From Nitrospira japonica (GTDB taxonomy: Bacteria; Nitrospirota; Thermodesulfovibrionia; UBA6902), in the NCBI GenBank assembly GCA_020723105.1, contig DYJL01000010.1:55291-119290 (forward strand): a stretch of DNA of 64,000 nucleotides, in the 5' to 3' direction. The notes beneath the pieces were generated by a model. It saw only the letters and a list, made by a program, of their open reading frames with translations. It did not search any database and had not been told where the DNA came from. The translations under genes were made by a program, and so were the position numbers. Numbering within the stretch: position 1 is the stretch's first letter; every line of letters begins with the position of its first letter. Shown in pieces: positions 5,838-28,692 of the stretch.

Positions 5838-8800
5838 ACATACCTCCGTGACTTTTTGATTCCGAAAACAGTTCAGCCCGTATCTTCTGAATTTCAGGGT
5901 CCTCGCATCTTTCATATGTAATAGGCCCTTTCTGCAAGGCATGGCGTTCCAGTATCAAAAGCCTTTTCGCTTTCTCTGTAAATTGAATGAGTAAATCCTT
6001 GATCTTTTCCGTAGGGGTGTATTGCAATACACCCCTACAATCCTGATCCTTTGCAATCTCCGCAATCTCCTTCATCATCACATACAGTGTGCAATACTCA
6101 AGCCCCCTTACTCCCCGTCTCCATTGCAAGAGTATTGGATTTCTCCAGAACCAGAGAAAATTCCGCTCCCCGAAGGCAATCAGGTCGGTAACCGCCGCTT
6201 TAAGTTCAGAAATGATTTCACTGTTGACAAATGGGGATTGGATGTTAGGAATTGGGGATTGGATTTTACTGACCCCTGACCCCTGACCCCTGACCCCTGT
6301 CTTTAAATATTCCCACAAATTCTTCAAAACCTGCTGTCCATTGATATCATCCGGCGTATCGAAATGGACCAGCGAAAGGAGGACCTTACCTTTTCCGCAA
6401 CTTCCTTCGACGACTGCTGGTTCATTAAGCAGTCTTTTGGGATCGAGGTTTATTCCGTAGACCTTCTCAAGTTCTGCCCAGTTGCCGCTGGCTTCAATAT
6501 CGCCTGTATTTAAATCTGAACTGAATGAATCAGGCAATGCATTGCCATAGGTGGCAAGTATATTAATACTTTTATCTTCAATCACAAACTGCGAGGGCCA
6601 CCAGGCGTGAAAAACATTGCTGTAGGGACAGGCCTGTGTGCCTGCCCTGGGCAACCACATAGGGTTGCCCCTACAAGAGGGGATTATCCCTTCCCAAACC
6701 GGATGTTTGTTCACATTAAGGTGTATCCTTCCGCTGAAGCTCGGCACCCTTTCTTTTGTCGGTTTTCGTTTGATATTCAGAAGGCTAATTCCATTGAGCG
6801 TGGCGAGTCCGGCGCCTCCGCAGAAGCCGAGATAGCTGCCGCCGTTTTTTACAAATTCTCGTATCGCCTCTGTCCCTTTGTCACCCAGCGCCTTCTTTTT
6901 GTTCGACGCCCAGCCGCCAGGGACAAAGAGCATGCTGTATTTCTCAAGACATCCGTTTTTAATATCATCTGATCTTATGAGATTAAAAGGCAGACTCAGG
7001 TTTTGCAAAGCCTTATACGCCATGATCCCCCAGAGGAAAGACTCATCCCACAGCATGGCGGTCCCCCTTTTCTCCCCTTGTGAATTTCTAATTTCTCCCT
7101 CCTTGCCCCTACTCCCTACTCCCTGTTTTTTGTTCTCATATCCCCTTGGCGTTATCATCCGGTTATTCCAAACCATTGTCTGTGAGTTGCCTATTATCAC
7201 TGTGGTCTGCATATCTATATCGTGATTAAGCATGTCCCTGAGGTCTGTAATAATAAAATGTTCATTTTCCCTCATTGCTGCTTTCACAATTCCAATAGGG
7301 GTTTCAGGCTTTCTGTATTTGGAAATAATTTCCTGCGCCCTTTGAATGTGTTTCTGTCTCCCTTTGCTTTTTGGATTGTAGAGCGCAATAACAAAGTCTG
7401 CATTAGCAGCAGCTTTCAGCCTTTTCTCGATAACCTCCCATGGAGTAAGTCTGTCTGAAAGACTTATAGATGCAAAATCATGCATGAGCGGTGCGCCAAG
7501 ACGCGCTGCACAGGCATTCAGCGCTGAGATGCCGGGAATAACCTCGACAGACAGTGACTCCTGACTCTTAAGCAGTTCAAACACCAGTCCTGCCATTGCA
7601 TAAATACCGGGATCGCCTCCGCTTATTACAGAGACAGCCTTGCCTTCCAATGCAAGCTCGATTGCCTTCCTACATCTGTCAATCTCCTGAGTCATTCCAG
7701 TTGAGACAACCTCTTTGTCCTTGGTCAATTCTTTTATTAAATCAAGATATGTTCCGTATCCGACAATTACATCCGATTCCTTTATCGCCTCCTGCGCTCT
7801 CGGAGTGATGTGTTCAAGGCCCCCGGGACCAGTCCCGACGATATAGAGTTTAGAGTTATGAGTTATGAGTTTAGTAGGTAGTTTCGAATCTTGGATCTTG
7901 AATATTGAATTTTCTTTTTTCTTAACTCTTGACTCTTGACTCTTAACTCTCTCTGCTACCGCTACCGTCGCATTCCCTGACTTCTGTTTCGGGACCAGCA
8001 ACTTCATAGCTTCTGCTGCAAGCAATGCTGCGGGCTCTGCTACCGCATTTGCGCCAACTGCCTTTAAGACAGCTTTTGATTTTGTTATGCCCTTTACTCT
8101 ATTAAGTTCATCAGATGTAAATGTTCTGATCTCAAGATTATATTTTCCTGCAAAAGAAACCAGACCAGGTTCATTACCTTTCTTATCAATGGTTGCAATG
8201 GAATGAATGGAGGCAAAAGCAAGATTATTTTCCTTCAGGGTCTTTTTGACAACTTCCTCGATCTCATTAGCAGTTGTGCCGCTATTGCAGCCGATGCCGA
8301 TAACAAGGTTTTTGGGCCGAAGGTAGAGTCTGGAATTTGGAGTTTGGAATTTGGAATTTTTTTTATTCTCAATTCTTAACTCTAACCTCTTAACTCTTAA
8401 CTCTTTATTTGTTATCACCATATCTGCCAATTTCAACTCTTCAACCTTTTTAAATTCATCCGGCAATTGCATATCCACATCTGTATAAACTTGCAGCAAA
8501 CCCTTATTCAAAAGTCGTGTAGATATCTTAGGCAGCAAATTCCAGTTTTCAATAACAAGATTATTTTCATGTGCCCACAAATCTATAGACGGCACGCTGT
8601 TTACATCTGATGCCGTGGTGATAACAGCATTACCTCCAAGACGCATAGCGATTTCCTTTGCAAGATAATTGGCCCCGCCGAGATGGCCGCTCAGAAGACT
8701 GATGACATTTGAGCCGTTTTCATCAAGAACCACAACAGCAGGATCTGTTCTTTTATCTTTTAACAGCGGCGCAATTGTTCTCACAACAATGCCGGATGCC

Positions 8801-9009
8801 ATGATGAATATGAGAGCTTTGCACTCTCGCCAATGCAGGGGCAATTCATGAATTGCCCCTGCGGATGTAAACTTGATAATCCCTGCGTCAGGATACAAAA
8901 TCTGAATATGTTGCGCGAGCTCATACCCTTTATCTGTCACATAATAAATTGCTGTTTTCCCCTTCTTAACTCTTAACTCCTGACTCTTGACTCTATTTTC
9001 TAAAACCAT
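5773..9009 (-). CDS. cbiGH: CbiG-CbiH-BPL_N triple fusion: cobalt-precorrin-5A hydrolase / precorrin-3B C17-methyltransferase / glutamine-amidotransferase-like domain
   Basis: From the ATG at 9009 (AAGGA site ten bases upstream) the product has 1078 residues. Residues about 18-350 are CbiG (MASGIVVRTIAPLL, LLSGHLGGAN, VIGIGCNSGTT), which opens the delta-lactone of cobalt-precorrin-5A. Residues about 388-625 are CbiH, an SAM-dependent C17-methyltransferase and ring contractase (YIVGTGPGGLEHITPRA, GGDPGIYAMAG at 464-474). Residues about 650-905 match the BPL_N class of glutamine-amidotransferase-like domains (LFVPGGWA, YLGFCGGAGLA with a nucleophile-elbow cysteine). A helical tail of 150 residues follows. 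Linkers at 199-230, 352-388 and 905-930 are encoded by heptamer repeats, and three palindromic elements are also inserted in frame. An upstream in-frame ATG at 9084 lies inside cbiF and is unlikely. BPL_N attached to CbiGH is unusual, and its role is unknown. Confidence 0.88.
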   Translation of the reverse strand: MVLENRVKSQELRVKKGKTAIYYVTDKGYELAQHIQILYPDAGIIKFTSAGAIHELPLHWRECKALIFIMASGIVVRTIAPLLKDKRTDPAVVVLDENGSNVISLLSGHLGGANYLAKEIAMRLGGNAVITTASDVNSVPSIDLWAHENNLVIENWNLLPKISTRLLNKGLLQVYTDVDMQLPDEFKKVEELKLADMVITNKELRVKRLELRIENKKNSKFQTPNSRLYLRPKNLVIGIGCNSGTTANEIEEVVKKTLKENNLAFASIHSIATIDKKGNEPGLVSFAGKYNLEIRTFTSDELNRVKGITKSKAVLKAVGANAVAEPAALLAAEAMKLLVPKQKSGNATVAVAERVKSQESRVKKKENSIFKIQDSKLPTKLITHNSKLYIVGTGPGGLEHITPRAQEAIKESDVIVGYGTYLDLIKELTKDKEVVSTGMTQEIDRCRKAIELALEGKAVSVISGGDPGIYAMAGLVFELLKSQESLSVEVIPGISALNACAARLGAPLMHDFASISLSDRLTPWEVIEKRLKAAANADFVIALYNPKSKGRQKHIQRAQEIISKYRKPETPIGIVKAAMRENEHFIITDLRDMLNHDIDMQTTVIIGNSQTMVWNNRMITPRGYENKKQGVGSRGKEGEIRNSQGEKRGTAMLWDESFLWGIMAYKALQNLSLPFNLIRSDDIKNGCLEKYSMLFVPGGWASNKKKALGDKGTEAIREFVKNGGSYLGFCGGAGLATLNGISLLNIKRKPTKERVPSFSGRIHLNVNKHPVWEGIIPSCRGNPMWLPRAGTQACPYSNVFHAWWPSQFVIEDKSINILATYGNALPDSFSSDLNTGDIEASGNWAELEKVYGINLDPKRLLNEPAVVEGSCGKGKVLLSLVHFDTPDDINGQQVLKNLWEYLKTGVRGQGSGVSKIQSPIPNIQSPFVNSEIISELKAAVTDLIAFGERNFLWFWRNPILLQWRRGVRGLEYCTLYVMMKEIAEIAKDQDCRGVLQYTPTEKIKDLLIQFTEKAKRLLILERHALQKGPITYERCEDPEIQKIRAELFSESKSHGGMFKELIDEIDHLLFSYKSLSLS
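6011..6038. repeat. GTAGGGG-type palindromic element inside the cbiGH-BPL_N gene
   Basis: This 28-base perfect palindrome starts GTAGGGGTGTATTGC and ends with its complement. It is read in frame in the C-terminal tail as CRGVLQYTPT. Related palindromes with the same GTAGGGGC/GCCCCTAC ends occur at 6622, 12824, 15365 and 25987. Confidence 0.8.
6271..6299. repeat. Heptamer array (GACCCCT)x4 in coding sequence
   Basis: There are four copies of a seven-base unit, preceded by GATTGG-type degenerate units (6231-6270). On the coding strand the unit is GGGTCAG, which is stop-free in all three frames, while the opposite strand contains TGA in one frame. It encodes the RGQGSGV linker after the BPL_N domain. 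Confidence 0.85.
6622..6674. repeat. Paired palindromic element inside the BPL_N domain
   Basis: Two adjacent hairpins flanked by GTAGGG and CCCCTAC are read in frame as CRGNPMWLPRAGTQACPY between two otherwise conserved domain segments. The same kind of insert (with APT/CVCP text) occurs in cobC at 25987. Confidence 0.8.
7844..7951. repeat. Compound heptamer arrays forming the CbiG-CbiH linker
   Basis: Three successive degenerate arrays (AGAGTTA/GAGTTAT type, GAATCTT type, and TTAACTC/TTGACTC type) make up about 100 bases between the CbiG and CbiH domains. On the coding strand they read RVKSQESRVKKKE, IFKIQDSKL and LITHNSKL with no stop. In-frame TAA is avoided because those units carry AGTCAA in place of AGTTAA. 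Confidence 0.85.
8324..8405. repeat. Compound heptamer arrays inside CbiG
   Basis: These are GGAATTT/GGAGTTT units followed by TTAACTC/TAACCTC units. They are translated in frame as ELRVKRLELRIENKKNS and FQTPNSRLYLR, between the N-terminal and C-terminal halves of CbiG. Confidence 0.8.
8835..8862. repeat. Palindromic element in the N-terminal part of cbiG
   Basis: This is a 28-base perfect palindrome with GCAGGGGCAATTC ends, read in frame as AGAIHELPLHWREC just before the conserved LIFIMASGIVVR segment. Confidence 0.75.
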
Positions 9010-9757
9010 GTTTAAAATCCTTATGATAAAGTTTTGATTCTCTTCCAAGTGATGCCTCTGAGGCCCTAAGGGCTTCACCAACATAGATCAGCGCTGTTTT
9101 TCTAATGCCGGCTTCCGTAACTTTCTCTGCAATATCTCTCAAAGTCCCTCTCACGATTTTTTGTTCCGGCCAAGAAACCTTCTCAATCACGACAACTGGC
9201 GTATCTTCAGGATAACCTGTAAGGAGTTCATCCCGGACTTTTTCAATCATTCCGGCGCTTAAAAATATCACCATCGAGGCTTGGTGTTTTGCAAGCTCAG
9301 AGAGTTTCTCTTCTTCCGGTACAGGCGTCCTGCCTTCCATTCGCGTCAATATCACTGTCTGACTTATCTCTGGTATTGTAAGCTCCTGCCCGAGCATTGC
9401 TGCTCCAGCCGTTGCAGAAGACACCCCGGGAATGACCTCATACTCGATATTCAATTCACGCAGTTTCTCTATCTGCTCTGATATTGCGCTATAAAAAGAT
9501 GTATCGCCAGTATGAAGACGTGCGACCTTCTTTCCCTTATCAACAGATGTCTTGATAAGATTAATTATCTCATCCAGTGTCATTCCCGCTGAATCGTGGA
9601 TATCTGCCTTGATGCCATCAAGCAGTGCAGGATTCACAAGGCTTCCTGCGTAAATAACCACATCGGCTTCATCAAGAAGCCTTCTGCCCTTGAGGGTAAT
9701 CAATTCAGGGTCCCCGGGGCCTGCGCCAATGAAATAGACCTTGGACTGTTCAGGCAT
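8993..9757 (-). CDS. cbiF: Cobalt-precorrin-4 C11-methyltransferase
   Basis: This SAM-dependent tetrapyrrole methyltransferase of 254 residues methylates C11 of the corrin precursor. The N-terminal VYFIGAGPGDPELITLKG, YAGSLVNPALL, the loop RLHTGDTSFYSA, YEVIPGVSSATAGAA and the C-terminal ALIYVGEAL are diagnostic of CbiF/CobM. The start overlaps the end of the HD-domain gene by 8 bases and its stop overlaps the cbiG start by 17 bases, so it is a coupled member of the operon. No repeat insertions are seen within it, unlike most neighbours. Confidence 0.95.
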   Translation of the reverse strand: MPEQSKVYFIGAGPGDPELITLKGRRLLDEADVVIYAGSLVNPALLDGIKADIHDSAGMTLDEIINLIKTSVDKGKKVARLHTGDTSFYSAISEQIEKLRELNIEYEVIPGVSSATAGAAMLGQELTIPEISQTVILTRMEGRTPVPEEEKLSELAKHQASMVIFLSAGMIEKVRDELLTGYPEDTPVVVIEKVSWPEQKIVRGTLRDIAEKVTEAGIRKTALIYVGEALRASEASLGRESKLYHKDFKHGFRK

Positions 9758-10535
9758 TTTGCAACCTTTCTGAAATATATCGGTTTACCACTTCCACTGC
9801 CTCAAGTATTTCTTTTGTTCGGGGTAATTCGTCTGCAATCATTCTGACATAATTTTTCTCATGAAGCAGCCTGATTGATTCCCTGAAATGCATGTCAAAA
9901 ACCCAGGACAGCTTCATCAGTTTAAAATCATTTTCAGTTTTTATGTTTGAATACGAAGCTACTTTGCGGCTCATTATACAGGCAAGCATGACCTTTGAAT
10001 ATTCCGGACCATCCGGAACGCCGAAAGCAGTAGCAGAAGCCCGGTCTTCTTTCGGGCTTGCGTAGTATTCAATGAATACCCGGTAAATATCAACCTTGTC
10101 TGCATCTCTGATTAATTTCAGGAACAGGATAACATCATCAGAAATACGCGGTATTGCAAAGGCATTATGAAACCTTACAGTTTCAGTTATTAATTGTTGC
10201 TCTTTTTCAGGAAGATTGCGTAAGACTTTTCCCTCTATCAGGATTCTGGAACCGAGAAGGCCATGATTTATTGAATCTGCATCTCTGAAGGTCTTGTATT
10301 TTGCATATTGAGAAAAGCGGCCTACATCATGAAACAGCGCAACTGTTTCGGCAACTTTAATCTGGTTGCTGTTAAGCGATGAAACCTTTGCTATCCTGAG
10401 AATGTTTTCGCATACGTTATGGGTATGCACAATTTTAAGTGTTATGTTCTTCAGGTCTTCTTCATTTGAAGAATAGAATGACTTCGTATAATCGGTAAAC
10501 CAGTTTCTCAAATAAATCAGATCCGTCTCTGTCAT
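9750..10535 (-). CDS. HD-domain phosphohydrolase in the cobalamin operon
   Basis: The 261-residue protein has an HD metal-binding core: THNVCENILRIAK supplies the first histidine and VALFHDVGRFSQYAKY the HD pair. LIRDADKVDIYRVFIEYY, which contains the later conserved aspartate, follows. HD proteins hydrolyse phosphate esters of nucleotides or other small molecules; the substrate here cannot be told. It overlaps both neighbours (ATGA with cbiL, 8 bases with cbiF), so it is a genuine operon member. A role in nucleotide or corrinoid metabolism is only inferred. Confidence 0.85.
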   Translation of the reverse strand: MTETDLIYLRNWFTDYTKSFYSSNEEDLKNITLKIVHTHNVCENILRIAKVSSLNSNQIKVAETVALFHDVGRFSQYAKYKTFRDADSINHGLLGSRILIEGKVLRNLPEKEQQLITETVRFHNAFAIPRISDDVILFLKLIRDADKVDIYRVFIEYYASPKEDRASATAFGVPDGPEYSKVMLACIMSRKVASYSNIKTENDFKLMKLSWVFDMHFRESIRLLHEKNYVRMIADELPRTKEILEAVEVVNRYISERLQNA

Positions 10536-11266
10536 TTTCTTACAATCACCATTGAGAAGTAGTTTAAATCTTCCGGTCTCACGTCTTTGATATTATGAAA
10601 TATCTTTTCATCATCCATGCCGGCCCGGGAAATGTACGCAGCCCCCTTGAGCATATTCATCTCATCAAGCAACTTTACAACCTCATCAAATACTTTATGC
10701 ACCTTCATAAGCACAACCGTATCAAATGTCTCTAAGGCCGATCTGATATTGCCCATATAATTTGCCGGCAGAATGGCAATTTTTTCATCTGCAAGCCCCA
10801 TGGATATTTTTGCCCTTGCAGCCGAAGCATTTATGGAAGATACGCCGGGAATAATTTCTATAGCCAATCCTGGATTAAGCTTAATAAGCCTGTCATACAA
10901 ATAGTAAAACGTACTGTATATTGTCGGGTCCCCGAGCGTGAGAAAGGCGACGTTCTGGCCCTCTTTCAGTCTACTTAATATAGCTTCGACCGTTTGATTC
11001 CATTTAGCATCAAGGTCTTCTTGTCCCTTGCCCCTTGCCCCTTGCCCCTGTTTTATTGTTTTAACCATCGGAAAATGCGCCTCTATAATTTCTTTGCCAT
11101 CGAGGTCAATCGCTTTCTCAACAATTGACAGTGCAAGGCTGCTGCCTTCTTCTCTGCCTTTGGGGACACAAAGTGCCGGACATTCTTTAATGACCCTTAC
11201 AGCCTTGAGTGTCAAAAGCTCAGGGTCGCCGGGGCCTATGCCGATGACATTTAGTTTTCCTGTCAT
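10532..11266 (-). CDS. cbiL: Cobalt-precorrin-2 C20-methyltransferase
   Basis: The 244-residue methyltransferase methylates C20 of cobalt-precorrin-2, the first methylation after cobalt insertion. Features are LNVIGIGPGDPELLTLKAVR, CPALCVPKGREEGSSLALSI (the CbiL-specific region), VAFLTLGDPTIYSTFYY and IEIIPGVSSINASAARA. A heptamer array (11021-11050) is inserted in frame and gives the GQGARGKGQE loop. The gene starts directly after the cbiET stop. Confidence 0.95.
   Translation of the reverse strand: MTGKLNVIGIGPGDPELLTLKAVRVIKECPALCVPKGREEGSSLALSIVEKAIDLDGKEIIEAHFPMVKTIKQGQGARGKGQEDLDAKWNQTVEAILSRLKEGQNVAFLTLGDPTIYSTFYYLYDRLIKLNPGLAIEIIPGVSSINASAARAKISMGLADEKIAILPANYMGNIRSALETFDTVVLMKVHKVFDEVVKLLDEMNMLKGAAYISRAGMDDEKIFHNIKDVRPEDLNYFSMVIVRK
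11021..11050. repeat. Heptamer array (CCCCTTG type) inside cbiL
   Basis: About four seven-base units occur here. On the coding strand (AGGGGCA) they are read in frame as QGQGARGKGQ. The insertion lies in a surface loop position ahead of the conserved LTLGDPT motif. Confidence 0.85.
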
Positions 11267-12649
11267 CTATAGTTTCTCACCTGTTACGATAAATATCGGA
11301 TTCAGGGCACTCATGTGTCTTTTGCCGCCAATGGTTTTTGATCTCGAAACTGAAATCTCGGAGATATCAATCTTGAATCCACTTCTCTCAAGAGACTGTA
11401 CTGCTTCATTCAAGGTCTCGATGGTGGTTGCATTGATCACGATAATAAGTGTCGAGTCTTTTAACTCATAACTCATAACTGTTAACTCATGACTTCTTCT
11501 AATAATTTCTATTATTCCTTCAAGTTTCCCGCTGCTCCCGCCTATAAAAACTTTGTTCGGCGACGGGAGATCTCTTAATGCCTCTGGCGCCTCTCCTTTT
11601 ACAATCTCGATATTCGTGATACTGAATTTGCTTATGTTTGCAACAATGTTGTTAATCTGTTCCTCATCTTTTTCAATTGCAAAGATTTTAAGTCCCGGAC
11701 AGAGCCTGGCGGCTTCAATTGACACGGCGCCTGAACCCGCGCCGATGTCCCAGAGCACGCCTCTTTCAGGTAGGCGCAATTTGTGTATCGTAACAGCCCG
11801 CACTTCATCTTTGGTAATCAATCCTTTTGTATGCTGAATCTCATTTTCCCTGAGGCCTAAGACAGGGGGTAGGGGGTAGGGGGTAGGGGATAGCGGGATA
11901 TCTGTATTCTGTGCTCTGTGTTCTGAGTTCCGAATTATTAATGCTACATTCGGATGCTCAAATTCACGATTTGCAATATCATCCGGTTTGCCTCCGGTAA
12001 TTTTCTCATCAGGATAACCGAGTTTCTCGCAAACATACATTTTAATTATGTCATTGCGAGCCGCAGGCGAAGCAATCTCGGCGTTTTTAGATTGCTTCGT
12101 CGGTCGTATCGACCTCCTCGCAATGACTTCAGCAATTACCGACGGGTTATTCATCTTGTCAGTAAGGATGGCGATCTTATTATGTTTAACAAGCAGAGAC
12201 GGGAGATCGCTCAGTTCATATTCGAGCTCTCTTCTTTTTGTTGGGTCAGGGCCTCCGTGAAGACTTATCAGCAATGCGTCGTTTGAGCTTTCGCATATCC
12301 TCGAAAATGCAACCTGTATGCTCGACAGGTCAGGATGGACTTCTACCGCATCTTTGCCGAACCTTTCAACAGCCAAACGCCCTATGCCGAAAAACATCGG
12401 GTCTCCGGCAGCCAGAAGGGCTATCTTCTTTTCTCTGTAATTGTCCCTGATATAATCCAGCATTTCATAAACACTGCCGTGAACCAGGATTTTATCTTTG
12501 ACTTTTTCATAGTCAGCATAATTTTTAAATACATCAAACAGCCTGTTGTTTGCAAGCACAACTTCAGAACCAAGCAAAGCCTTAGCGGCAGCATTATCAA
12601 GCGGCCTGAATCCAATACCGATGACATAAATCTTATTCACTTTCTGCAA
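11267..12649 (-). CDS. cbiET: CbiE-CbiT fusion: cobalt-precorrin-7 C5-methyltransferase / precorrin-6B C15-methyltransferase (decarboxylating)
   Basis: The 460-residue protein is the CobL-type fusion. The N-terminal half is CbiE (IYVIGIGFRPLDNAA, LLAAGDPMFFGIGRLA, VEVHPDLSSIQVAFSRI). The C-terminal half, from about 270, is CbiT with the class I methyltransferase motif VLWDIGAGSGAVSIEAAR and IFAIEKDEEQINNI. Together they methylate C5 and C15 and remove the C12 acetate carboxyl. The start is TTG at 12649, preceded by GGAGAGG and overlapping cbiD; a GTG at 12640 is an alternative. In-frame insertions include a dyad element (12050-12127) and heptamer arrays near 11460-11495 and 11863-11935. Confidence 0.93.
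   Translation of the reverse strand: MQKVNKIYVIGIGFRPLDNAAAKALLGSEVVLANNRLFDVFKNYADYEKVKDKILVHGSVYEMLDYIRDNYREKKIALLAAGDPMFFGIGRLAVERFGKDAVEVHPDLSSIQVAFSRICESSNDALLISLHGGPDPTKRRELEYELSDLPSLLVKHNKIAILTDKMNNPSVIAEVIARRSIRPTKQSKNAEIASPAARNDIIKMYVCEKLGYPDEKITGGKPDDIANREFEHPNVALIIRNSEHRAQNTDIPLSPTPYPLPPVLGLRENEIQHTKGLITKDEVRAVTIHKLRLPERGVLWDIGAGSGAVSIEAARLCPGLKIFAIEKDEEQINNIVANISKFSITNIEIVKGEAPEALRDLPSPNKVFIGGSSGKLEGIIEIIRRSHELTVMSYELKDSTLIIVINATTIETLNEAVQSLERSGFKIDISEISVSRSKTIGGKRHMSALNPIFIVTGEKL
11863..11892. repeat. Heptamer array (AGGGGGT)x4 in the CbiE-CbiT linker
   Basis: This is a near-perfect tandem array, continued to about 11935 by TCTGTGC/TCTGTGT units. It is read on the coding strand as PLSPTPYPLPPVLG. 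The opposite strand would contain TAG in one frame. Confidence 0.9.
12050..12127. repeat. GTCATTGCGAG...CTCGCAATGAC dyad element inside cbiE
   Basis: This 78-base element has inverted ends GTCATTGCGAG/CTCGCAATGAC and an internal AGATTGCTTCGTCGG/GAAGCAATCTCGG inverted pair. It is translated in frame as RRSIRPTKQSKNAEIASPAA. A second copy of the family occurs in intergenic DNA at 54439-54520. Confidence 0.85.
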
Positions 12650-13877: not shown

Positions 13878-13909
13878 TATCCCTTACCCCCTAATCCCTG
13901 CCCCCTTTT

Positions 13910-15241: not shown

Positions 15242-15252
15242 ACGTAAACTCC

Positions 15253-15392: not shown

Positions 15393-15399
15393 AAACATT

Positions 15400-19208: not shown

Positions 19209-19217
19209 TGTCTTTTT

Positions 19218-19245
19218 TTCTACTTTCTACTTTCTACTTTTAATT
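19218..19245. repeat. Heptamer array (TCTACTT)x3 just upstream of the riboswitch
   Basis: Three to four units lie between the cbiXC stop codon and the 5' end of the aptamer. This is one of the few arrays outside a reading frame. Confidence 0.8.
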
Positions 19246-19247
19246 CA

Positions 19248-20231: not shown

Positions 20232-20253
20232 GATGCTCCTTCTTTAAAAATCG

Positions 20254-20307
20254 GTAGTCGCAGGCTTTAGCCTGCGCTTTTTAACGCAACCTAAAAGTTG
20301 CGGGTAC
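20254..20307. repeat. Composite palindrome between cbiA and cbiXC
   Basis: Two hairpins (GCAGGCTTTAGCCTGC and CGCAACCTAAAAGTTGCG) are flanked by short inverted ends. It is the same family as 15283-15336. The element overlaps the 3' end of cbiA (stop at 20291). Confidence 0.85.
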
Positions 20308-21733: not shown

Positions 21734-22911
21734 AAATCCTTTAACTCCTTCAGCAATATCTTATTATGCTTCCTTGATTTCACAGCAACTCTGATGTAGG
21801 AACCATCAAGTCCCTTAAAGTTCGAGCAATCCCTGACGAGAATTCCTTTTTGCCTCAGCAGGAGCACAGCATGCCGTATCTCTACATTCAGCAGATAATA
21901 ATTAACATCTGATGGATAAAATCTGATCCCCAGCTTTTTAAAACCCTTTTCAAGAAAATCCTTTTCATCCTTCATCAACTTAAAAGTCTTCTGTGAATAT
22001 CCACCATCTTCAAGCGCTGCGACTGCTGCCTTTTGCGCAAGGTTATTCACTGTCCACGGCTCTTTGAAATGTAATATTCTTTCTGTCAGACTTTTATGAA
22101 ATACTCCATAACCAATTCTCAATCCTGTAAGCGCATAAAACTTTGTCATCGAACGGAGCACTATTAGATATGGATTGTCTTTGACATCATGTATGACCGA
22201 CTCTTCGGGAGTGAAATCAATAAACGCCTCGTCTACCACAAGAAAGCATTTCATGTCCTTAGCTGCTTCAGCAATCTTCAATGCTTCGCCGCGTCTGAGA
22301 AGATGTCCGGTCGGGTTGTTGGGATTGCAGAGGAAAGCCATGTGACGACCAGGGACGAGGGACGAGGGATAAGGGGCAAGGGATGAGTCACAAGAGGTGA
22401 GCGGCAAGCGGCGAGTGACCAGAGAACAATTTTCTCTTATTGCATTGATAAATTTGTCAGGATTAATCTTGAAATTATTTTCTTTTTTTAAGTTGTAACT
22501 TGTTACTTGCAACTTGTCACTCGTTCTGCACGCGCGTTCATATTCCGAAAAGGTCGGCGCAGGAATAAGAACTTGCTTTGGCTGCAGGGCTCGAAGAATC
22601 AGATAGATAAGCTCGGTGCTGCCGTTTCCGCAAATTATCATTTCCGGTTCAATACTATTATGCTGCGCTAATTTCTCTTTCAGCTTTGTTGTATCAGGGT
22701 CCGGATAGTTCACAAGACGGCTCAATTCACTTTTGATTACATCTTTCACCTTCCTTGAGACTCCAAGAGGGTTGATAGATGCACTGAAGTCGATCAATTG
22801 ATCTTCGGCCACTCCAAGCCCTTCGGCAATTCTGTAGATGTTTCCCCCATGCTCAAAAGAGTTGTGAGGCATGAGTTTAGAGTTAAGAGAAACAGATTTA
22901 ATTTTCATCAT
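21721..22911 (-). CDS. cobD: L-threonine-O-3-phosphate decarboxylase (CobD class, aminotransferase fold)
   Basis: The enzyme supplies (R)-1-amino-2-propanol phosphate for the nucleotide loop. Of 396 residues, the functional part seems to begin around NSFEHGGNIYRIAEGLG. Motifs are LIDFSASINPLGVSRKV, MIICGNGSTELIYLIL, FLCNPNNPTGHLL, CFLVVDEAFIDFTPEE and the PLP lysine in LRSMTKFYALTGLRIGYG. The first 13 residues come from a heptamer-like tract, and arrays near 22335-22400 and 22490-22525 add internal loops (RRLPLTSCDSSLAPYPSSL). The start overlaps the cbiB stop as ATGA. Confidence 0.92.
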   Translation of the reverse strand: MMKIKSVSLNSKLMPHNSFEHGGNIYRIAEGLGVAEDQLIDFSASINPLGVSRKVKDVIKSELSRLVNYPDPDTTKLKEKLAQHNSIEPEMIICGNGSTELIYLILRALQPKQVLIPAPTFSEYERACRTSDKLQVTSYNLKKENNFKINPDKFINAIRENCSLVTRRLPLTSCDSSLAPYPSSLVPGRHMAFLCNPNNPTGHLLRRGEALKIAEAAKDMKCFLVVDEAFIDFTPEESVIHDVKDNPYLIVLRSMTKFYALTGLRIGYGVFHKSLTERILHFKEPWTVNNLAQKAAVAALEDGGYSQKTFKLMKDEKDFLEKGFKKLGIRFYPSDVNYYLLNVEIRHAVLLLRQKGILVRDCSNFKGLDGSYIRVAVKSRKHNKILLKELKDLCTE

Positions 22912-23909
22912 ACAGCGCCCCTTAAATACAAATATGTCAAAGCGAACAAAAAACCTAAAACAGAAGTAAGCTTCACAATGAGCACCGCTTTTTCTGAAGC
23001 ATTCAGTAACTCATCCCGACTCCTAACTCCTGACTCTTCCCCGATATACGGCTTCTCAACCACTATCCCTCCGTAAGTGGAATTGCCTCCAAGTCTTACA
23101 CCGAGCGCTCCTGCCATTGCAGCTTCGGGAATGCCGCTGTTGGGGCTTAGATGTTTTCGTCCATCGCGTAACATGATTTTCAGTGACGAGTTGCAAGTGG
23201 CAGGTGACAAGTTGAGAATAAAAGATGAGACAGCAATTAAAATCCCTGTTATCCTTGCAGGTATATAATTAACAATATCGTCAAGCTTTGCTGCAGCCCA
23301 GCCGAAATTTTTGTACTGCTCATTTTTATAGCCGACCATGGAGTCGAGTGTGTTTATTGCTTTATATGCCATGGCCAGCGGCAATCCGCCGATTGCAAAA
23401 TAAAACATCGGGGCCACGATTCCGTCTGAGGCATTTTCAGCGAGGGTTTCAATCGTCGCCTTTGAGATACCCTTTGCATCTAATTGGTTCGTGTCCCTGC
23501 CAACAATCATACCGAGTTTCTTCCGCGCGTCTTCCCTGTCTTTCGAATTTAAAGCATCGATCACCGACTTGCACGATTTGATAAGATCATTCGTCGCGAT
23601 AGTCGTCGAAGTGAAATAGACGAGGAGCGCGAAAGACAAGAAAGAAGTGGGAAGTGAGAAGTGGGGAAGGAGAAGTAAAGAATTAAGCGCATAGAATATT
23701 AAATATATGATACCGACCACAACCACAACAAGCAGGACACCGGATAACTTTTCTGCCAGGGTTATTCCTTTAACTTCTGATTTTCTTAATATCCTCTCCA
23801 TCTTCTCAATCCCCCATCCAATACCTCTCACCGGATGCGGCAGCCATCTTGGATCGCCGATTATCAAGTCAAGTATATAGGCTGATGTAAATATAATTGC
23901 TTCAGTCAT
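22908..23909 (-). CDS. cbiB: Adenosylcobinamide-phosphate synthase
   Basis: CbiB is the membrane protein joining aminopropanol phosphate to adenosylcobyric acid. ATG 23909 overlaps the cbiP stop as ATGA and is preferred over the longer frame from 23942. The 333-residue product opens MTEAIIFTSAYILDLIIGDP, then RWLPHPVRGIGWGIEKME, TIETLAENASDGIVAPMFYF and YKAINTLDSMVGYKNEQY, ending with GGNSTYGGIVVEKPYIG. Heptamer arrays give three inserted loops: SLPTSFLSFALL (23635-23680), NLSPATCNSSL (23180-23220) and ESGVRSRDELL (23010-23040). Confidence 0.93.
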   Translation of the reverse strand: MTEAIIFTSAYILDLIIGDPRWLPHPVRGIGWGIEKMERILRKSEVKGITLAEKLSGVLLVVVVVGIIYLIFYALNSLLLLPHFSLPTSFLSFALLVYFTSTTIATNDLIKSCKSVIDALNSKDREDARKKLGMIVGRDTNQLDAKGISKATIETLAENASDGIVAPMFYFAIGGLPLAMAYKAINTLDSMVGYKNEQYKNFGWAAAKLDDIVNYIPARITGILIAVSSFILNLSPATCNSSLKIMLRDGRKHLSPNSGIPEAAMAGALGVRLGGNSTYGGIVVEKPYIGEESGVRSRDELLNASEKAVLIVKLTSVLGFLFALTYLYLRGAV

Positions 23910-25456
23910 GACTCCATTCCCGCCTGTCTCAGCATAAAACATATATCAACGCTGTTTCCAAGAACATCAGCCCATTTGTTGATTGCCTCATTTTTTGCAG
24001 CGGAATAATTAAATTGTGCGTCCGGCACGGGCAATCCCCTTTTCTGTCTTAGTAAATTAAGAATGTCTGTGCGGAATTCATCGTTATCAAATATGCCGTG
24101 AATGTATGTACCCCAGACATTGCCTTTTGAAGAACCGTCCCACATCAGTGACGAGTGACAAGTGACAAGTGACGAGTTAGAATTAGAATGTCTCCTTACT
24201 TTGAATAATCCGATGTCACCTGTACTGGTACCCATATGGATTTCATAGCCTTTTAACGGTTTTTCCCTGACCCCTGTCTCTTGCGCTTGCACCTGACATG
24301 TTATCTTGGTGTTGCCATAAGTTGTTTCAATATCGAGAAGTCCCATGCCGTCCACTTCTTTGAGACTGCTTTCGACCCCGTGAGGGTCATAAATTTTTTT
24401 GCCGAGCATTTGATACCCTCCGCATATCCCGGCAAGAGGAATCCCTTTTTCTGCAGCAGCTTTTAGAGACTCTTCTAATCCATTTTCCCTTAAATAGAGC
24501 AGATCGCTTACTGTGTTTTTTGATCCCGGGATTATGATAAGGTCAGCGCACATGATGTCGTCCCGCCACATAGAATATTTCAATTCAACATCCGGCTCGT
24601 GCATAAACGGAGCAAAGTCCGTGAAGTTGGAAATATACTTTAATCGTAAGACAACAATCTTGATTGCCTTTAATTTTGAATTTTGAATTTTGAATTTTGA
24701 ATTTGTTTCTATTGATAATCCGTCTTCCTCATCGAGTCTCAAATCGGCTTGATAATACAAAGCGCCGATCACCGGTTTGCCGGTTTTATCCTCAATCATT
24801 CTTAAACCGGGACGGAGGATATTGATGTCGCCCCGAAATTTGTTCACGATAAAGGCCTTGATATAATCAGCGTCAGTTCTTGAATCTTGAATCTTGAATT
24901 TTGAATCTTTCAATAGTTCCACCGTCCCATAGAAAGATGCAAATACCCCCCCCTTGTCAATATCACCAACAAGTATTACCGGGGCGTTTGCGTAGCGCGC
25001 CATCTTCATATTGACTACATCTTCTTTTAAGAGGTTAATCTCTGCCGGACTGCCTGCGCCTTCAATTACAATAAGGTCATAGTGCTTTGAAAGCCTGTCA
25101 TACGCGGCGGTTATCACATCCCACGCCTTGTCTTTGATTGCATAATATTCATGAGCCTTCATTGTTGCGTATACCTTGCCGTTAAAAATCACCTGACATC
25201 CTGATTCACCTGCAGCCTTTAGAAGCACTGGATTCATGTCATTACAGGGCTCAATTCCTGCGGCCTCTGCCTGAAATGCCTGGGCCCGTCCTATTTCGCC
25301 GCCTTCTTTGGTTATAAAGGAATTCAGCGCCATGTTCTGCGCCTTAAAGGGAGCAACCTTGATGCCCATATCCCTGAATATCCTGCAAAGTCCCGCAACA
25401 ATAACGCTCTTGCCGGCTCCGGAACCTGTGCCCTGTATCATTAAAGCTTTTGACAT
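23906..25456 (-). CDS. cbiP: Cobyric acid synthase
   Basis: CbiP amidates carboxyls b, d, e and g of adenosylcobyrinate diamide. The 516-residue product has the P-loop GTGSGAGKSVIVAGLCRIF, VAPFKAQNMALNSFITKEGG, ANAPVILVGDIDKGGVFASF, then the amidotransferase part with LIIIPGSKNTVSDL and AGICGGYQMLGKKIYDP. Heptamer arrays at 24148-24178, 24672-24704 and 24878-24910 are read in frame as SNSNSSLVTCHSSL, TNSKFKIQNSKL and SKFKIQDSRTD. They fall between conserved blocks, so activity may be kept. Confidence 0.95.
   Translation of the reverse strand: MSKALMIQGTGSGAGKSVIVAGLCRIFRDMGIKVAPFKAQNMALNSFITKEGGEIGRAQAFQAEAAGIEPCNDMNPVLLKAAGESGCQVIFNGKVYATMKAHEYYAIKDKAWDVITAAYDRLSKHYDLIVIEGAGSPAEINLLKEDVVNMKMARYANAPVILVGDIDKGGVFASFYGTVELLKDSKFKIQDSRTDADYIKAFIVNKFRGDINILRPGLRMIEDKTGKPVIGALYYQADLRLDEEDGLSIETNSKFKIQNSKLKAIKIVVLRLKYISNFTDFAPFMHEPDVELKYSMWRDDIMCADLIIIPGSKNTVSDLLYLRENGLEESLKAAAEKGIPLAGICGGYQMLGKKIYDPHGVESSLKEVDGMGLLDIETTYGNTKITCQVQAQETGVREKPLKGYEIHMGTSTGDIGLFKVRRHSNSNSSLVTCHSSLMWDGSSKGNVWGTYIHGIFDNDEFRTDILNLLRQKRGLPVPDAQFNYSAAKNEAINKWADVLGNSVDICFMLRQAGMES
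24148..24178. repeat. Heptamer array (GTGACAA/GTGACGA)x4 inside cbiP
   Basis: It is read as SSLVTCHSSL on the coding strand. It is the same unit as the signal-peptide array at 17406. Confidence 0.88.
24672..24704. repeat. Heptamer array (GAATTTT)x4 inside cbiP
   Basis: Exact seven-base units are read on the coding strand as NSKFKIQNSKL. The opposite strand would have TGA in one frame. A related GAATCTT array lies 200 bases away (24878-24910). Confidence 0.9.
24878..24910. repeat. Heptamer array (GAATCTT/GAATTTT)x4 inside cbiP
   Basis: It is translated as DSKFKIQDSR, and is the second of two closely related arrays in this gene. Confidence 0.9.
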
Positions 25457-25466
25457 ATTCTACGAT

Positions 25467-25493
25467 GCAGGGCAGGTTTAAAACCCGCTCCTA
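25467..25493. repeat. Imperfect palindrome between cobC and cbiP
   Basis: A GCAGGGCAGGTTTAAAACC arm pairs with CCGCTCCTAC. It belongs to the GTAGGGGC-type family, overlaps the cobC stop, and lies just upstream of the cbiP start at 25456. Confidence 0.6.
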
Positions 25494-26195
25494 CAGAATC
25501 CTTCCATTAATTAATTTCACTACCGGATAATCATCCCACATCTCAATAATGTTCAAGCATCCGTAATCCTGTTCCACCCTGAATATATTCTCAAGTGGTA
25601 TGCCTAAAAATTCACAAAGCATGATTCTGTTAATGCCGCCGTGGGCTACGATAGCTATGGTTTTATTTCTGTCCGTGCTCTGTGTTCTGTGTTCTGTGCT
25701 CTGATTTAATATCTTCCCCAACGCCCTTACAGTCCTGTCTCTGACTTCAATCGTACTTTCTCCGCCCATGGGGCTATGTTCCAGAGGGTTTGAAGCCCAG
25801 GCCTTAAATTCATCAGGATGCTTTTCTTTTATTTCGTCAAAAGACATACCTTCCCAGATTCCGAAGTTGCGCTCTCTTAATTCAGGAATGATAACCGGCT
25901 TTAATCCGTAAGGACCGGCGATAATCTCTGCGCTCTTTACAGCACGGCTAAGGTCGGAGGAATATATCGCTGTTAACATGTTGTTTGTAGGGGCAACCCT
26001 CTGTGGTTGCCCTTTATTTAACGATTTATCTGATTCAGGGCAGACACAGGGGTCTGCCCCTACAATAAAACTTGCCACTCTTTTCATCTGTTCAATGCCG
26101 TTCTCAGACAATGGCACGTCAAGGTGACCCTTGTAGCGTTTCGTCTCAGCGCCTTCTGTTTCTCCATGTCTTATCAGATAAATTTTTGTGACCAT
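25491..26195 (-). CDS. cobC: Histidine phosphatase, probable alpha-ribazole phosphatase
   Basis: This phosphoglycerate-mutase-fold enzyme is likely to remove the phosphate from alpha-ribazole-5'-phosphate or adenosylcobalamin phosphate. The 234-residue product starts [20 protein letters not shown] with the catalytic RHG, and has YSSDLSRAVKSAEIIA, ELRERNFGIWEGMSFDEI and AIVAHGGINRIML. A 77-base palindromic pair (25987-26063) is read in frame as GADPCVCPESDKSLNKG then QPQRVAPTN within the first domain, and an array at 25675-25703 gives STEHRTQSTD. The cobS gene overlaps its start by 22 bases. Confidence 0.9.
   Translation of the reverse strand: MVTKIYLIRHGETEGAETKRYKGHLDVPLSENGIEQMKRVASFIVGADPCVCPESDKSLNKGQPQRVAPTNNMLTAIYSSDLSRAVKSAEIIAGPYGLKPVIIPELRERNFGIWEGMSFDEIKEKHPDEFKAWASNPLEHSPMGGESTIEVRDRTVRALGKILNQSTEHRTQSTDRNKTIAIVAHGGINRIMLCEFLGIPLENIFRVEQDYGCLNIIEMWDDYPVVKLINGRIL
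25675..25703. repeat. Heptamer array (TCTGTGT/TCTGTGC)x4 inside cobC
   Basis: The array is read in frame as STEHRTQSTD ahead of the conserved AIVAHGG motif. Confidence 0.85.
25987..26063. repeat. Paired GTAGGGGC palindromic element inside cobC
   Basis: It has outer ends GTAGGGGC/GCCCCTAC, two internal hairpins (GGGCAACC...GGTTGCCC and GGGCAGAC...GTCTGCCC), and a 25-base spacer. It is inserted in frame between the N-terminal RHG region and YSSDLSRA. Confidence 0.85.
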
Positions 26196-26953
26196 ATAAT
26201 TACGCTCAATAGAAATAATATCTCTGATATCTCGGAAACTGCGCCGAATGTATCGCCAGTCATGCCCCCGAAATTTTTATTGGAAATCCACACGGCAGCA
26301 TGGCAAAAAATATATAGCACAAGCAGCGTCAATAAAAAAGAAGCAAGGAGCAAGGGGTAAGGGACCAGGGGAAGCAAAAGAAGAAGCGGCAGAACAGTCA
26401 GCAGAGCAGCAATCAGGAATTCCCTTTTCCCTGTATGCTCAATGAATGTTTTTCCCAACCCATCCTGTTTTGCGGATTTACCGTGAAAAATTGCGGCTAC
26501 CATGGTCCACCGCGAAATGGCAGGCGCTAAAAACAGTGAAGAGTAATAAGTAACCAGTGACAGGTTTAACAGTGCATCCAGAAGCAGGTATTTCAGTAAT
26601 ATTGCAAGAACTATCGCCATTACTCCAAACGCACCTATAGCGCTGTCTTTCATTATTGCCAATTTTCTCTCTCTGTTTTTTCGGGATGCCAGGGCATCAA
26701 AGGTATCTGCGAGTCCGTCAAGATGAAGACCGCCGTTTATTGTTATCATGACAAGAACCACGCACGCGCTTGCTACATCATGTGGGAGGAATTTAACGAA
26801 CAGGGCTGCAAAAGATACCGTCAAAATACCCTGAAGCATTCCGACCAAAGGGAAAAAAGCAGAAGCCCCTCCGGCATCCTCTTCCGATATAGGGCCCATT
26901 TTCTTTATGGGAATAATGGTTAAAAACTGAAATGCAAGCAAAAAGCGTTTCAC
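26174..26953 (-). CDS. cobS: Adenosylcobinamide-GDP ribazoletransferase (cobalamin synthase)
   Basis: This polytopic membrane enzyme joins adenosylcobinamide-GDP with alpha-ribazole. The 259-residue product begins [20 protein letters not shown] and contains the metal-binding [14 protein letters not shown] motif, [18 protein letters not shown] and [17 protein letters not shown], all typical of CobS. An array near 26340-26370 encodes [16 protein letters not shown], which extends a membrane loop. The start overlaps the cobT stop as ATGA. Confidence 0.94.
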
Positions 26954-28008
26954 CTTTTTTCCGACACTCCTGCCTCTCCAAATGTCGCCATCTCTTTGTA
27001 AATCTTTATCCCGGCCTCGATAACAAATATGGCCAGTGAAGCGCCTGTACCTTCACCCAATCTGAGATCGAGATCAAGAATAGGCCGCAGCCCCATTTTC
27101 TCAAGCATTGCCTTGTGACCCACTTCCTGTGACATGTGCGCTGCAAACATATAATCTTTTGTTTTGGGCTCAATGGAATACGCTATAAGTGCGCCTGCTG
27201 TAGAGATAAAACCATCAACCACGACCGGAACTTTATTTGCTGCAGCTCCAAGAATCAGCCCCGCAATTCCGCCAATCTCTGCGCCGCCTACTTTTGCAAG
27301 CACGTCAATAGCGTTGGATGGATTCGGTTTGTTCAGCACAATGGCATCTTTTATTATCTGAACCTTGTGCTTCCATGTAGCATCGTTTATTCCCGTTCCC
27401 CTTCCAGTGACTTCTTCAACAGTTCTTCCGGTAATTACAGCGGCAATAGCGCTTGAGGGCGTTGTATTTGCAATCCCCATGTCTCCTGTGCCGAATATCC
27501 TGTAACCCTGTTTTGCATATTTATTTGCCAACTCTATTCCAACGGCAATACATTTCTCTGCTTCGTCTCGCGTCATAGCTGAACCCATCCGCATGTTCTT
27601 TGTGCCGTACAAGACCTTTTGAGGGACGAAGAACTCATTTTTGATATCACCGAAATCACCATCCACGCCTATATCAACCACAACGACATCCGCACCGGCA
27701 TGCCGGGAGAGGACATTTATCCCTGCTCCGCCGTTTAGAAAATTAAGAACCATCTGCTGGGTCACTGCCTTTGGAAAAGCAGAAACGCCCTCATCTGCAA
27801 CGCCGTGGTCTCCGGCAAATGTGAAAACTACTTTTTTGTCCAATACGGGCATTGGATTTTCCGTAATTGAAACAATCTGTCTTGCAAATTCTTCAAGCCT
27901 GCCGAGGCTGCCTTGCGGTTTTGTAAGATTGTCCAGGCGCTTCTGTGCCTGATCGGCGAATTTACCGTTAACGTGGGTGATTGTATTTACGATTGAATTT
28001 AAATCCAT
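26950..28008 (-). CDS. cobT: Nicotinate-nucleotide--dimethylbenzimidazole phosphoribosyltransferase
   Basis: CobT activates the lower ligand base to alpha-ribazole phosphate. The 352-residue product shows [70 protein letters not shown] and [20 protein letters not shown] with the catalytic glutamate. Length matches the family. No repeat insertion is evident. A 150-base AT-rich repeat tract separates it from cobU. Confidence 0.96.
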
Positions 28009-28158
28009 AGCTCCTCCAGTTTTAAAAAATTAAAGATTAAAAATCAAAATGCAAAATTACAAATCAAAAATTAAAATAACCACAACGCAATATTTTTGCA
28101 TTTTGATCTGTTATTTTGAGTTTTGATTTTTTATATTTGAGTTATTCCATTTAAGCTC
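28009..28158. repeat. AT-rich degenerate repeat tract between cobU and cobT
   Basis: Short units such as AAAAATCAAAAT, AAATTACAAATCAAAAATT and the inverted TTGCATTTTGATCTG/TTTTGATTTTT can form long AU-rich hairpins. It appears to be a decayed heptamer tract. I see no coding potential. Confidence 0.55.
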
Positions 28159-28692
28159 TCAAGTTCTTACGCCTTTTATCTTCACGGGAATCCCAGCTGT
28201 AACCAGATACACCTCATCAGCCGGCCCGGCGACCTTTTGATTTAACAATCCTGCCAAGTCTCTGAAGCGTCTTGCCATCTCGTTTTCCGGCACAATGCCC
28301 ATACCGACTTCATTGGAAACGATAAACAGTGACAAGCCGCAAGTGACAGGTGACAATCTCTTTAATGCTTCCGCCAGATTTTCAATTTCCCTTTTGACAT
28401 CCAGATTGCAAAGCAGTACATTCGACAGCCATAACGTCAGGCAGTCAAGAACGATAACATCGTATTTGCTATTCAACTCTTTAAGGGTCTCTGTGATTTT
28501 TACAGGTTCTTCATACGTATCCCAATCCGTACCTCTTTCATCCTTATGCTTTCTGATACGCTCCTGCATCTCTTCATCAAGCGCCTGAGCAGTAGCGATA
28601 TAAGCCTTTCGCCCTTTAAGTGTGGATGCCTCCTTCAGGGCAAATGCACTCTTGCCGCTCCTTGCACCACCTATAACAAATACTATTTTCAT
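28159..28692 (-). CDS. cobU: Adenosylcobinamide kinase / adenosylcobinamide-phosphate guanylyltransferase
   Basis: CobU phosphorylates adenosylcobinamide and adds GMP. The 177-residue protein starts MKIVFVIGGARSGKSAFAL with the P-loop, then KAYIATAQALDEEMQERIRKH, DVIVLDCLTLWLSNVL and FIVSNEVGMGIVPENEMAR, as expected. A heptamer array (28330-28355) adds RLSPVTCGLSL inside. It is the first gene of the superoperon, directly after a riboswitch-terminator leader. The only G-rich stretch near the ATG lies in the 3' arm of the terminator hairpin, so ribosome access may depend on that fold. Confidence 0.95.
   Translation of the reverse strand: MKIVFVIGGARSGKSAFALKEASTLKGRKAYIATAQALDEEMQERIRKHKDERGTDWDTYEEPVKITETLKELNSKYDVIVLDCLTLWLSNVLLCNLDVKREIENLAEALKRLSPVTCGLSLFIVSNEVGMGIVPENEMARRFRDLAGLLNQKVAGPADEVYLVTAGIPVKIKGVRT

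Follow-up and report, generated by a model that had tools for sequence, protein, structure and literature searches.

For a 64,000-nucleotide stretch of DNA (the window; positions 55291-119290 of contig C94 in genome G000, which has 3,134,735 bases in 94 contigs), we found that a cobalamin (B12) biosynthesis and cobalt transport cluster of 21 open reading frames (ORFs) is dense in short tandem arrays of seven-base units, most of them translated. These arrays are probably surviving copies of a repeat that occurs genome-wide, is purged from most genes and is tolerated at permissive sites of B12 enzymes. The B12 proteins likely tolerate pieces of the repeat as spacers and, as predicted from the sequence, would in places use them as export signals. 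In its full form the repeat would consist of a purine-rich arm, a short middle and a pyrimidine-rich arm; selection would remove it from most genes, leaving copies at the permissive sites. Two routes would give rise to arrays, dispersal of this compound and local extension of a seed one unit long, and a site once occupied may stay open to later repeats. Of the coding arrays, those rich in purines would then act as charged spacers, and some of those rich in pyrimidines would form the cores of signal peptides. Below, G-numbers denote genomes (G000 being that of the window, the others relatives) and L-numbers denote loci or sequences from other records.

Arrays were detected with Tandem Repeats Finder (TRF) and with a lag-identity scan (threshold of at least 12 of 14 lag matches), and both recovered the heptamer arrays. 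By lag scan, positions 5773-28692 contain 34 period-7 arrays and the window's other 41 kb is free of them; block-shuffled sequence gave on average 0.00 arrays inside the cluster and 0.15 outside (20 shuffles). Inside the cluster the same scan found no array at periods 4-6 and 8-13 and one, two and one at periods 15, 20 and 23; the 24 arrays at period 14 and the nine at period 21 are expected as multiples of 7. Open frames overlap 31 of the 34 arrays by at least 10 nt, spread over 14 of the 21 ORFs, and three arrays lie between genes (19214, 28029 and 28114; Table 1). An earlier note on this DNA (the original prediction) had claimed about 30 heptamer arrays, mostly in reading frames, in frame and adding spacers to Cob/Cbi proteins; these counts agree with it, and all 14 positions that it named fall in an array or at most 7 bases from one. 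Its statement that only traces occur outside this region is right for the window, where a weak array (TRF score 31) with a tRNA gene on either side is found at 816-892 and no clear array at 59370, and wrong for the genome.

The commonest unit, TTAACTC, recurs on many contigs. Two tandem copies with at most one mismatch have 79 matches in the genome (overlapping matches counted), nine of them in the 22.9-kb cluster, for which the binomial p of 8e-9 is too small because matches overlap; allowing up to two mismatches gives 105 forward and 89 reverse matches, where a reversed control pattern has 13 and 19. Two background samples, of 20 stretches (225.8 kb) and of 14 stretches (280 kb), contained 25 and 16 arrays, respectively; the cluster, with 34 arrays in 22.9 kb, is 18-fold denser than this background. 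Six stretches on contigs C2 and C6, partly picked for matches, were held separate from the background, and the 14 regular background stretches had positions independent of matches, on contigs of known size. In-frame background arrays were present in hemH, murC, murD, mqnE, mqnC, hemC, aroC, carA, thiE and mnmA (10 ORFs, NCBIfam) and in an ORF read by eye as leuS. Confinement to cobalamin genes is ruled out by these in-frame arrays, in murC, murD and aroC among others, together with the TTAACTC matches on many contigs, so that what remains of the proposed concentration in one pathway is a much higher density, not a restriction.

To express this density we counted periods 7 and 8 together, per 10 kb, in cobalamin coding, other coding and non-ORF background DNA. 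For G000, the three values were 14.3, 0.55 and 5.2, a 26-fold contrast between the two coding classes. The relatives gave 15.6, 1.66 and 32.3 (G003), 16.0, 0.16 and 9.2 (G002), 10.2, 0.43 and 6.8 (G008) and 7.0, 0.58 and 19.0 (G007), so that cobalamin and other coding DNA differ 9- to 100-fold in these four same-genus genomes, the only relatives with sampled background, whose cobalamin stretches take in flanking genes. Cobalamin coding density was within about threefold of non-ORF density, which it exceeded in three genomes and fell short of in two. At the ribosomal protein loci of five genomes, 32 arrays were non-ORF (45.6 per 10 kb) versus four in ORFs (0.57); an alternative ORF call placed 30 of 36 arrays outside ORFs and six inside: L2 contains one, L29 has two at its end, and the other three belong to ORFs judged antisense or over-extended. 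One such locus (L170, from G007) has 18 period-7 arrays in 20 kb, with a heptamer array in many of the gaps of the operon. Density is therefore uneven across the sampled DNA, not the same everywhere, and by density the heptamers are mostly intergenic in the background and not so in the cobalamin cluster.

Within the cluster, arrays were specific to particular proteins. Across genomes, cbiD had 54 arrays in 13 sequences (12 of which carry arrays), and cobM had a single one in 22 sequences, with none in the ORF at the HD position (15 sequences), cbpB (13), cobT (nine) or hyp18 (nine). This pattern, being specific to proteins and repeated over genomes, is better explained by permissive proteins than by a regional hotspot. 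We regard as unlikely a local mutational hotspot in which arrays are born or copied more often in the cluster, for example by exchange between nearby arrays, with tolerance secondary: the cobalamin coding density does exceed that of non-ORF background in three of the five genomes, and a compound element of cbiG finds its best match in cbiD of the same cluster, but the next best lies on another contig, in mqnE, and cobM, the HD-position ORF, cbpB, cobT and hyp18 have together one array in 68 sequences. In its plain regional form a hotspot is disfavoured by these array-free genes within the cluster.

Permissiveness appears to extend to individual sites. Over 21 proteins, 1144 pairs of arrays from different genomes overlapped at the same site, where shuffling gave 422 on average; for pairs with unrelated units the numbers were 845 and 347. 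The genome pairs behind these counts are not independent. Alignment rows below 45-60% identity or far from the reference length were left out, the cbiGH row is weak, the fusion differing between genomes, CbiET was compared over part of the protein only, and L003 was omitted from the gene comparison as the same record as the G036 locus (QZIL01000027.1, both of length 31,991). In relatives, sites are filled by unrelated units, octamers or palindromes. CbiD has about six sites common to the sequences with differing units; the second holds heptamers in some, including G000, and octamers in L018 and L113 (EQQSSRA type), and two sequences read SIHELPLR or AIHELPLR there, like the peptide of the CbiET palindrome (DNA level). 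Turnover is visible between close pairs of genomes: at one site of CbiET a heptamer in G004 faces an octamer in G006, and the CbiET palindromes of G026 and G034 differ in their middles, one having a CCCCCAA array next after it. Some close relatives do share arrays, such as those of CobI common to G004 and G006; often, different repeats occupy the same sites, and segments conserved among homologues, the outcome against which the original prediction was to be judged, are mostly absent.

In the AlphaFold2 (AF2) model of CbiD, with a mean predicted local distance difference test score (pLDDT) of 78, seven ten-residue blocks score below 60 and repeats lie in five of them, where low pLDDT may also reflect a gappy alignment. 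In the solved CbiD structure, 1sr8, the first array site corresponds to a gap and the second to a short stretch. This structure was the sole Foldseek match of the model at E below 0.001, with a poor superposition (template modelling scores 0.32/0.46), and the model therefore supports loop positions only roughly. For MurD, an array pair at residues 114-144 stands between the matched stretches 9-113 and 144-509, and a second array pair falls where the solved chain has gaps.

The arrays often come in an ordered compound. Among neighbouring arrays at most 150 nt apart, purine-rich followed by pyrimidine-rich outnumbered the reverse order 20:1 in G000, 71:14 in relatives and 17:2 in the named loci, and 18:4 where both arrays were non-coding; the unordered pairs were two of two pyrimidine-rich arrays in G000, 14 of two pyrimidine-rich and 11 of two purine-rich arrays in relatives, and five and two, respectively, in the named loci. 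With a 116-base query from cbiG we found nearly full-length copies in cbiD (83% over 106 bp) and mqnE (78%), and 41 shorter matches besides the query itself, with 40 of 62 first-look candidates scored. Six hand-picked compounds (two cbiG copies and those of cbiD, mqnE, aroC and carA) can be aligned as members of a single dispersed family. The genome thus has homologous copies with inverted arms at scattered places, a trait of miniature inverted-repeat transposable elements. Of six stretches tested by RNA folding, one of them a 28-bp palindrome, four beat their shuffles (z from -2.2 to -5.7). Such folding, the cobalamin riboswitches in the cluster and the recurrence of array sites are what one would see if arrays were selected for a function, as mRNA hairpins or slow translation that tunes the expression or folding of cluster proteins. 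We consider this improbable, since two of the six stretches do not fold, some relatives have no repeat at these sites and the purine-pyrimidine order is also found in non-coding pairs.

Palindromes accompany the arrays. Twelve exact palindromes with a GTAG end, the trait of GTAG-tagged repetitive extragenic palindromes (REPs), occur in G000, two of them in the cluster; these 28-bp elements (GTAGGGG...CCCCTAC) are nearly or fully self-complementary, with differing middles, and the heptamer arrays themselves are not GTAG palindromes. By eye, a second type of inverted repeat, TCATTGCGAG...CTCGCAATGA, is read through in cbiET (window 12044-12121). Four Y1_Tnp matches were found in G000. One, at window 55264-55626 (142 bits), has a single in-frame TGA and is either a pseudogene or has a recoded stop; a tRNA-Sec at window 60509-60606 is relevant to possible recoding of this TGA. 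Two others (C83:203-532 and C69:32028-32357) are in uninterrupted frames 315 and 325 aa long, which we take to be similar in size to REP-associated tyrosine transposases and possible movers of the GTAG palindromes.

Coding arrays are also biased in orientation. For 308 coding arrays in cobalamin proteins of G000 and other genomes, the pure unit gives a stop in the antisense strand only for 137, in the sense strand only for 11, in both for 32 and in neither for 128. The proposal that retained arrays are filtered by orientation is supported by the 137 versus 11, and the identical orientation to the gene of all six aligned compounds agrees with it; the companion proposal that degenerate units keep the frame open describes the 43 arrays with a sense-strand stop in the pure unit, which remain open because their copies are degenerate or few. 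Arithmetically, neither 7 nor 8 shares a factor with 3, so that an array of at least three copies encodes one and the same cyclic peptide whichever frame of a strand is read, and only the strand matters; moreover, if the frame is kept, length can change only by three units, that is by 21 or 24 bp. Copy numbers of 3.8-4.7 units, a range picked after inspection of the data, were found in 132 of 273 coding versus 17 of 60 non-coding arrays (Fisher p 0.006), a concentration that matches expectation if three added units are retained. CobI of G026 and G034 differ by exactly 21 bp, three units adjoining a one-unit match, by gain or loss. Pairs with an identity of 78% or more showed 74 internal indels in the range 4-40 aa; two of these had both flanks at least 6/10 identical and both were exactly 7 aa, too few for a length spectrum and with gain and loss indistinguishable. 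Contingency loci, in which gain or loss of one unit would shift the frame and switch B12 genes on or off, agree with the arithmetic of 7 and 8, not being multiples of 3, but are very improbable given arrays that are short (many of about four units) and often degenerate and ORFs that in relatives are mostly near the lengths seen in G000.

What an array encodes depends on its arm. Purine-rich coding arrays encode charged stretches. Where pyrimidine-rich arrays stand at the N-terminus of CbiM or of the protein in the CbiN position, they encode hydrophobic runs, with a mean grand average of hydropathy (GRAVY) of 1.44 for 30 arrays compared with 0.04 for 115 other pyrimidine-coding arrays. At these N-termini, which carry arrays in 14 of 24 CbiN-position and 13 of 27 CbiM sequences, all 13 purine-rich arrays and five of the 30 pyrimidine-rich ones start at residues 1-6. 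CbiN-position N-terminal arrays were also seen outside Nitrospirota, in L042 (a Geobacter metagenome-assembled genome, MAG; 10702-11043) and L043 (an Omnitrophota MAG; 10654-10956). Outside the cluster, 13 N-terminal pyrimidine arrays had a mean GRAVY of 1.70 versus -0.09 for 28 internal ones, and eight of the 13 resemble signal peptides, which were judged by eye throughout: FlgA, FlgH, FlgI, ApbE and an outer membrane efflux protein in G000, two in G003 (LolA and a TPR lipoprotein) and a SurA-like protein with a Pfam match under the cut-off. Arms of 7- or 8-base units make the repeat read the same in every frame, and the purine-then-pyrimidine order on both strands would give a charged and then a more hydrophobic stretch whichever way the repeat lands. 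We tentatively hypothesise, although the odds are somewhat against it, that the repeat supplies protein parts ready for use, a signal peptide when it falls over a start site and a spacer when it falls inside a gene, and that the lineage keeps rebuilding both; with the same reserve, the rebuilt signal peptides may be those of CbiM, the CbiN-position protein, FlgA, FlgH, FlgI, ApbE and LolA.

Several observations weigh against the view that the arrays are tolerated survivors of a genome-wide repeat. The 20-kb cobalamin stretch of G009, in which cobM, the HD-position ORF, cobI and cbiET were found, has no period-7 array, and its genome nonetheless has 73 TTAACTC matches; the cobalamin stretches of G001, G006, G013, G015 and G026 have only 1.4-3.6 arrays per 10 kb. 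Coding density above that of non-ORF DNA in G000, G002 and G008 suggests that tolerance alone may be too little. General constraint does not explain the array-free proteins, since the HD-position ORF evolves fast (60% identity between G002 and G008) and has none. Same-site pairs with unrelated units are at the level of the shuffles in cbiB (1 versus 1.6) and cbiQ (1 versus 1.4). The CbiD arrays at residues 28-37 and 371-378 lie in blocks above pLDDT 60 (63-87 and 74). As for the compound, its arms are complementary in only nine of 20 purine-pyrimidine pairs in G000 and 35 of 71 in relatives, two of the six folded stretches are without a stable hairpin, and the 21-bp CobI difference may be a loss.

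If survival of a genome-wide repeat at permissive sites is the correct explanation, enzymes, among them MurC, MurD and AroC, which are likely essential, would be the subject of an experiment repeated by nature: unrelated genomic repeats would replace one another at the same sites, and signal peptides would be rebuilt from simple repeats. This would provide a map of permissive sites in B12 enzymes for engineering and a testable origin of new leader peptides. At the same time, annotation pipelines may mistake array segments for conserved or disordered domains.

The cluster comprises a cbiG-cbiH fusion, cobM, the HD-position ORF, cobI, cbiET, cbiD, the radical SAM gene cbpB, cbiO, cbiQ, a small membrane ORF in the cbiN position, cbiM, a hypothetical ORF, a cbiX-cbiC fusion, cbiA, cobD, cbiB, cbiP, cobC, cobS, cobT and a cobU-like ORF. 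The NCBIfam search gave no match for the HD-position and cbiN-position ORFs, whose labels, like the putative cobU-like one, come from position or reading. A pseudogene cluster is not supported, as family matches are strong and the ORFs open. The closest named CbiM locus belongs to the Nitrospiraceae MAG SURF_66 (86% identity) and the next ones mostly to Nitrospirota MAGs, one being labelled Desulfobacterales (75%). From this we infer a Nitrospirota host. A cyanobacterial host or transfer of the cluster is ruled out by the Nitrospiraceae CbiM match and by the occurrence of most of the genes together in same-genus genomes. In the locus labelled Desulfobacterales (L004), CbiM is about 75% identical to that of G000 and the rest of the cobalamin locus less similar, by transfer or a binning error. 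CbpB (TIGR04163, 514 bits; window 13910-15259, minus strand) is adjoined by a small ORF, read by eye at about 15400-15531 (minus), that may encode its peptide substrate. A group II intron match lies at window 47727-47795 (Rfam RF00029, 47 bits).

Table 1. Features of the cobalamin cluster and its repeats, in window coordinates (a point marks features given without strand).
Feature	Position	Strand	Evidence
Cobalamin biosynthesis and cobalt transport cluster, 21 ORFs	5773..28692	-	NCBIfam
28-bp GTAG-ended palindrome, read through in cbiGH	6011..6038	-	fold z -5.7
Array CTGACCC, cbiGH	6267..6301	-	TRF, lag scan
Array CCCTACT, cbiGH	7107..7126	-	TRF, lag scan
Compound purine-then-pyrimidine element, cbiGH (arrays 7844-7873, 7888-7909, 7919-7950)	7840..7955	-	lag scan, alignment; RNA fold z -2.2
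Compound element, cbiGH (arrays 8331-8359, 8380-8408)	8320..8412	-	lag scan, alignment; RNA fold z -4.3
Array TCTTAAC, near cbiGH start	8964..8993	-	TRF, lag scan
Array CTTGCCC, cobI	11019..11050	-	TRF, lag scan
Array TAACTCA, cbiET	11458..11486	-	TRF, lag scan
Purine-rich array (11861-11895), then pyrimidine-rich array (11908-11929), cbiET	11861..11929	-	lag scan; no stable fold
Array AAGGGAC, cbiD residues 371-378	12745..12766	-	TRF, lag scan
Palindrome GTAAGGGCGTATTGCAATACGCCCCTAC, read through, cbiD residues ~343-352	12824..12851	-	by eye; AF2 block 341-350 pLDDT 55
Degenerate 14/7-nt arrays, cbiD residues 178-191	13306..13344	-	TRF; AF2 pLDDT <50 at 181-186
Compound element, cbiD residues 95-131 (arrays 13486-13513, 13563-13593)	13483..13597	-	lag scan, alignment; AF2 pLDDT <50 at 102-127
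Array AACTCCT, cbiD residues 28-37	13768..13794	-	TRF, lag scan
28-bp GTAG-ended palindrome, between ORFs	15365..15392	.	palindrome search
Array CTGACCG, near cbiO N-terminus	16387..16419	-	TRF, lag scan
Array AAGCGAG, cbiQ	16877..16901	-	TRF, lag scan
Array in overlap of cbiQ and cbiN-position ORF	17198..17217	-	lag scan
Arrays 17403-17440 and 17452-17490, most of predicted signal peptide MKFQISNFKFQIVLIVFLLVTCHLSLVTAA, cbiN-position protein	17403..17490	-	lag scan; signal peptide by eye
Cobalamin riboswitch, before cbiXC	19070..19194	-	Rfam RF00174, 72.8 bits
Array TTTCTAC, between riboswitch and cbiXC	19214..19242	.	TRF, lag scan
Array AAGGGGT, cbiXC	19410..19445	-	TRF, lag scan
Array AGGGGCA, cbiA	20961..20991	-	TRF, lag scan
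Arrays 22346-22374 and 22489-22508, cobD	22346..22508	-	lag scan
Array GAAGTGG, cbiB	23643..23664	-	TRF, lag scan
Array AGTGACA, cbiP	24146..24178	-	TRF, lag scan
Array AATTTTG, cbiP	24668..24705	-	TRF, lag scan
Array TCTTGAA, cbiP	24876..24908	-	TRF, lag scan
Array GTGCTCT, cobC	25672..25703	-	TRF, lag scan
Array AAGCAAGGAGCAAGGGGTAAGG, cobS	26342..26362	-	lag scan
Two A+T-rich intergenic arrays upstream of cobT (28029-28048, 28114-28133)	28029..28133	.	lag scan
Cobalamin riboswitch, before cluster	28779..28978	-	Rfam RF00174, 89.2 bits

Short tandemly repeated heptamers go by the name of STRR sequences, and a comparison with those of cyanobacteria had been proposed. The likeness extends to tandem seven-base units beyond chance and to their dispersal over the genome, and it ends at the host, which is not a cyanobacterium because the closest named CbiM locus is that of the Nitrospiraceae MAG. 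Among the open-access titles and abstracts listed, we found none on heptamer arrays in cobalamin proteins, on protein sites refilled by different repeats or on signal peptides from heptamer arrays, which is not proof of absence.

Heptamer repeats mostly between genes and intragenic palindromes are known already (PMC4692102, PMC4679880, PMC3733652). In Nostoc and Xanthomonas, the heptanucleotide repeats GGGGA(C/T)T and GGGAATC have one G-rich unit per genome and are over-represented in non-coding DNA; those of Nostoc are 68% intergenic (PMC4692102). They share with those described here the seven-base unit, a preference for four copies, dispersal over the genome and some intragenic copies; here, on the other hand, unit families are numerous, relatives have octamers, arrays form purine-then-pyrimidine compounds, and the coding DNA of one cluster is dense in them. 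The TAACTGA of Beggiatoaceae is similar as a heptamer direct repeat and in composition, but is one unit and mostly intergenic: all but 25 of its 169 direct-repeat sets are fully intergenic, forward repeats inside a gene would stop translation, and a role in translational regulation has been suggested (PMC4679880). GTAG- and CGTC-tagged REPs include intragenic ones, as do the Rickettsia elements RPE-4 and RPE-6, and intragenic REPs occur in unrelated proteins, many of them of replication or repair, with uvrA struck at different sites (PMC3733652). Like these, palindromes are read through in genes here, where 28-bp elements start with GTAG, one in cbiGH and a variant in cbiD, and in-frame palindromic insertions in unrelated genes, the trait of the Rickettsia palindromic elements, are likewise found; the heptamer arrays differ from GTAG REPs in not being such palindromes. 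Finally, in Nematomorpha mitochondria both arms of coding palindromes encode conserved protein (PMC6649704); common to both cases are inverted repeats in genes that still work, whereas the repeats described here fill variable protein sites.

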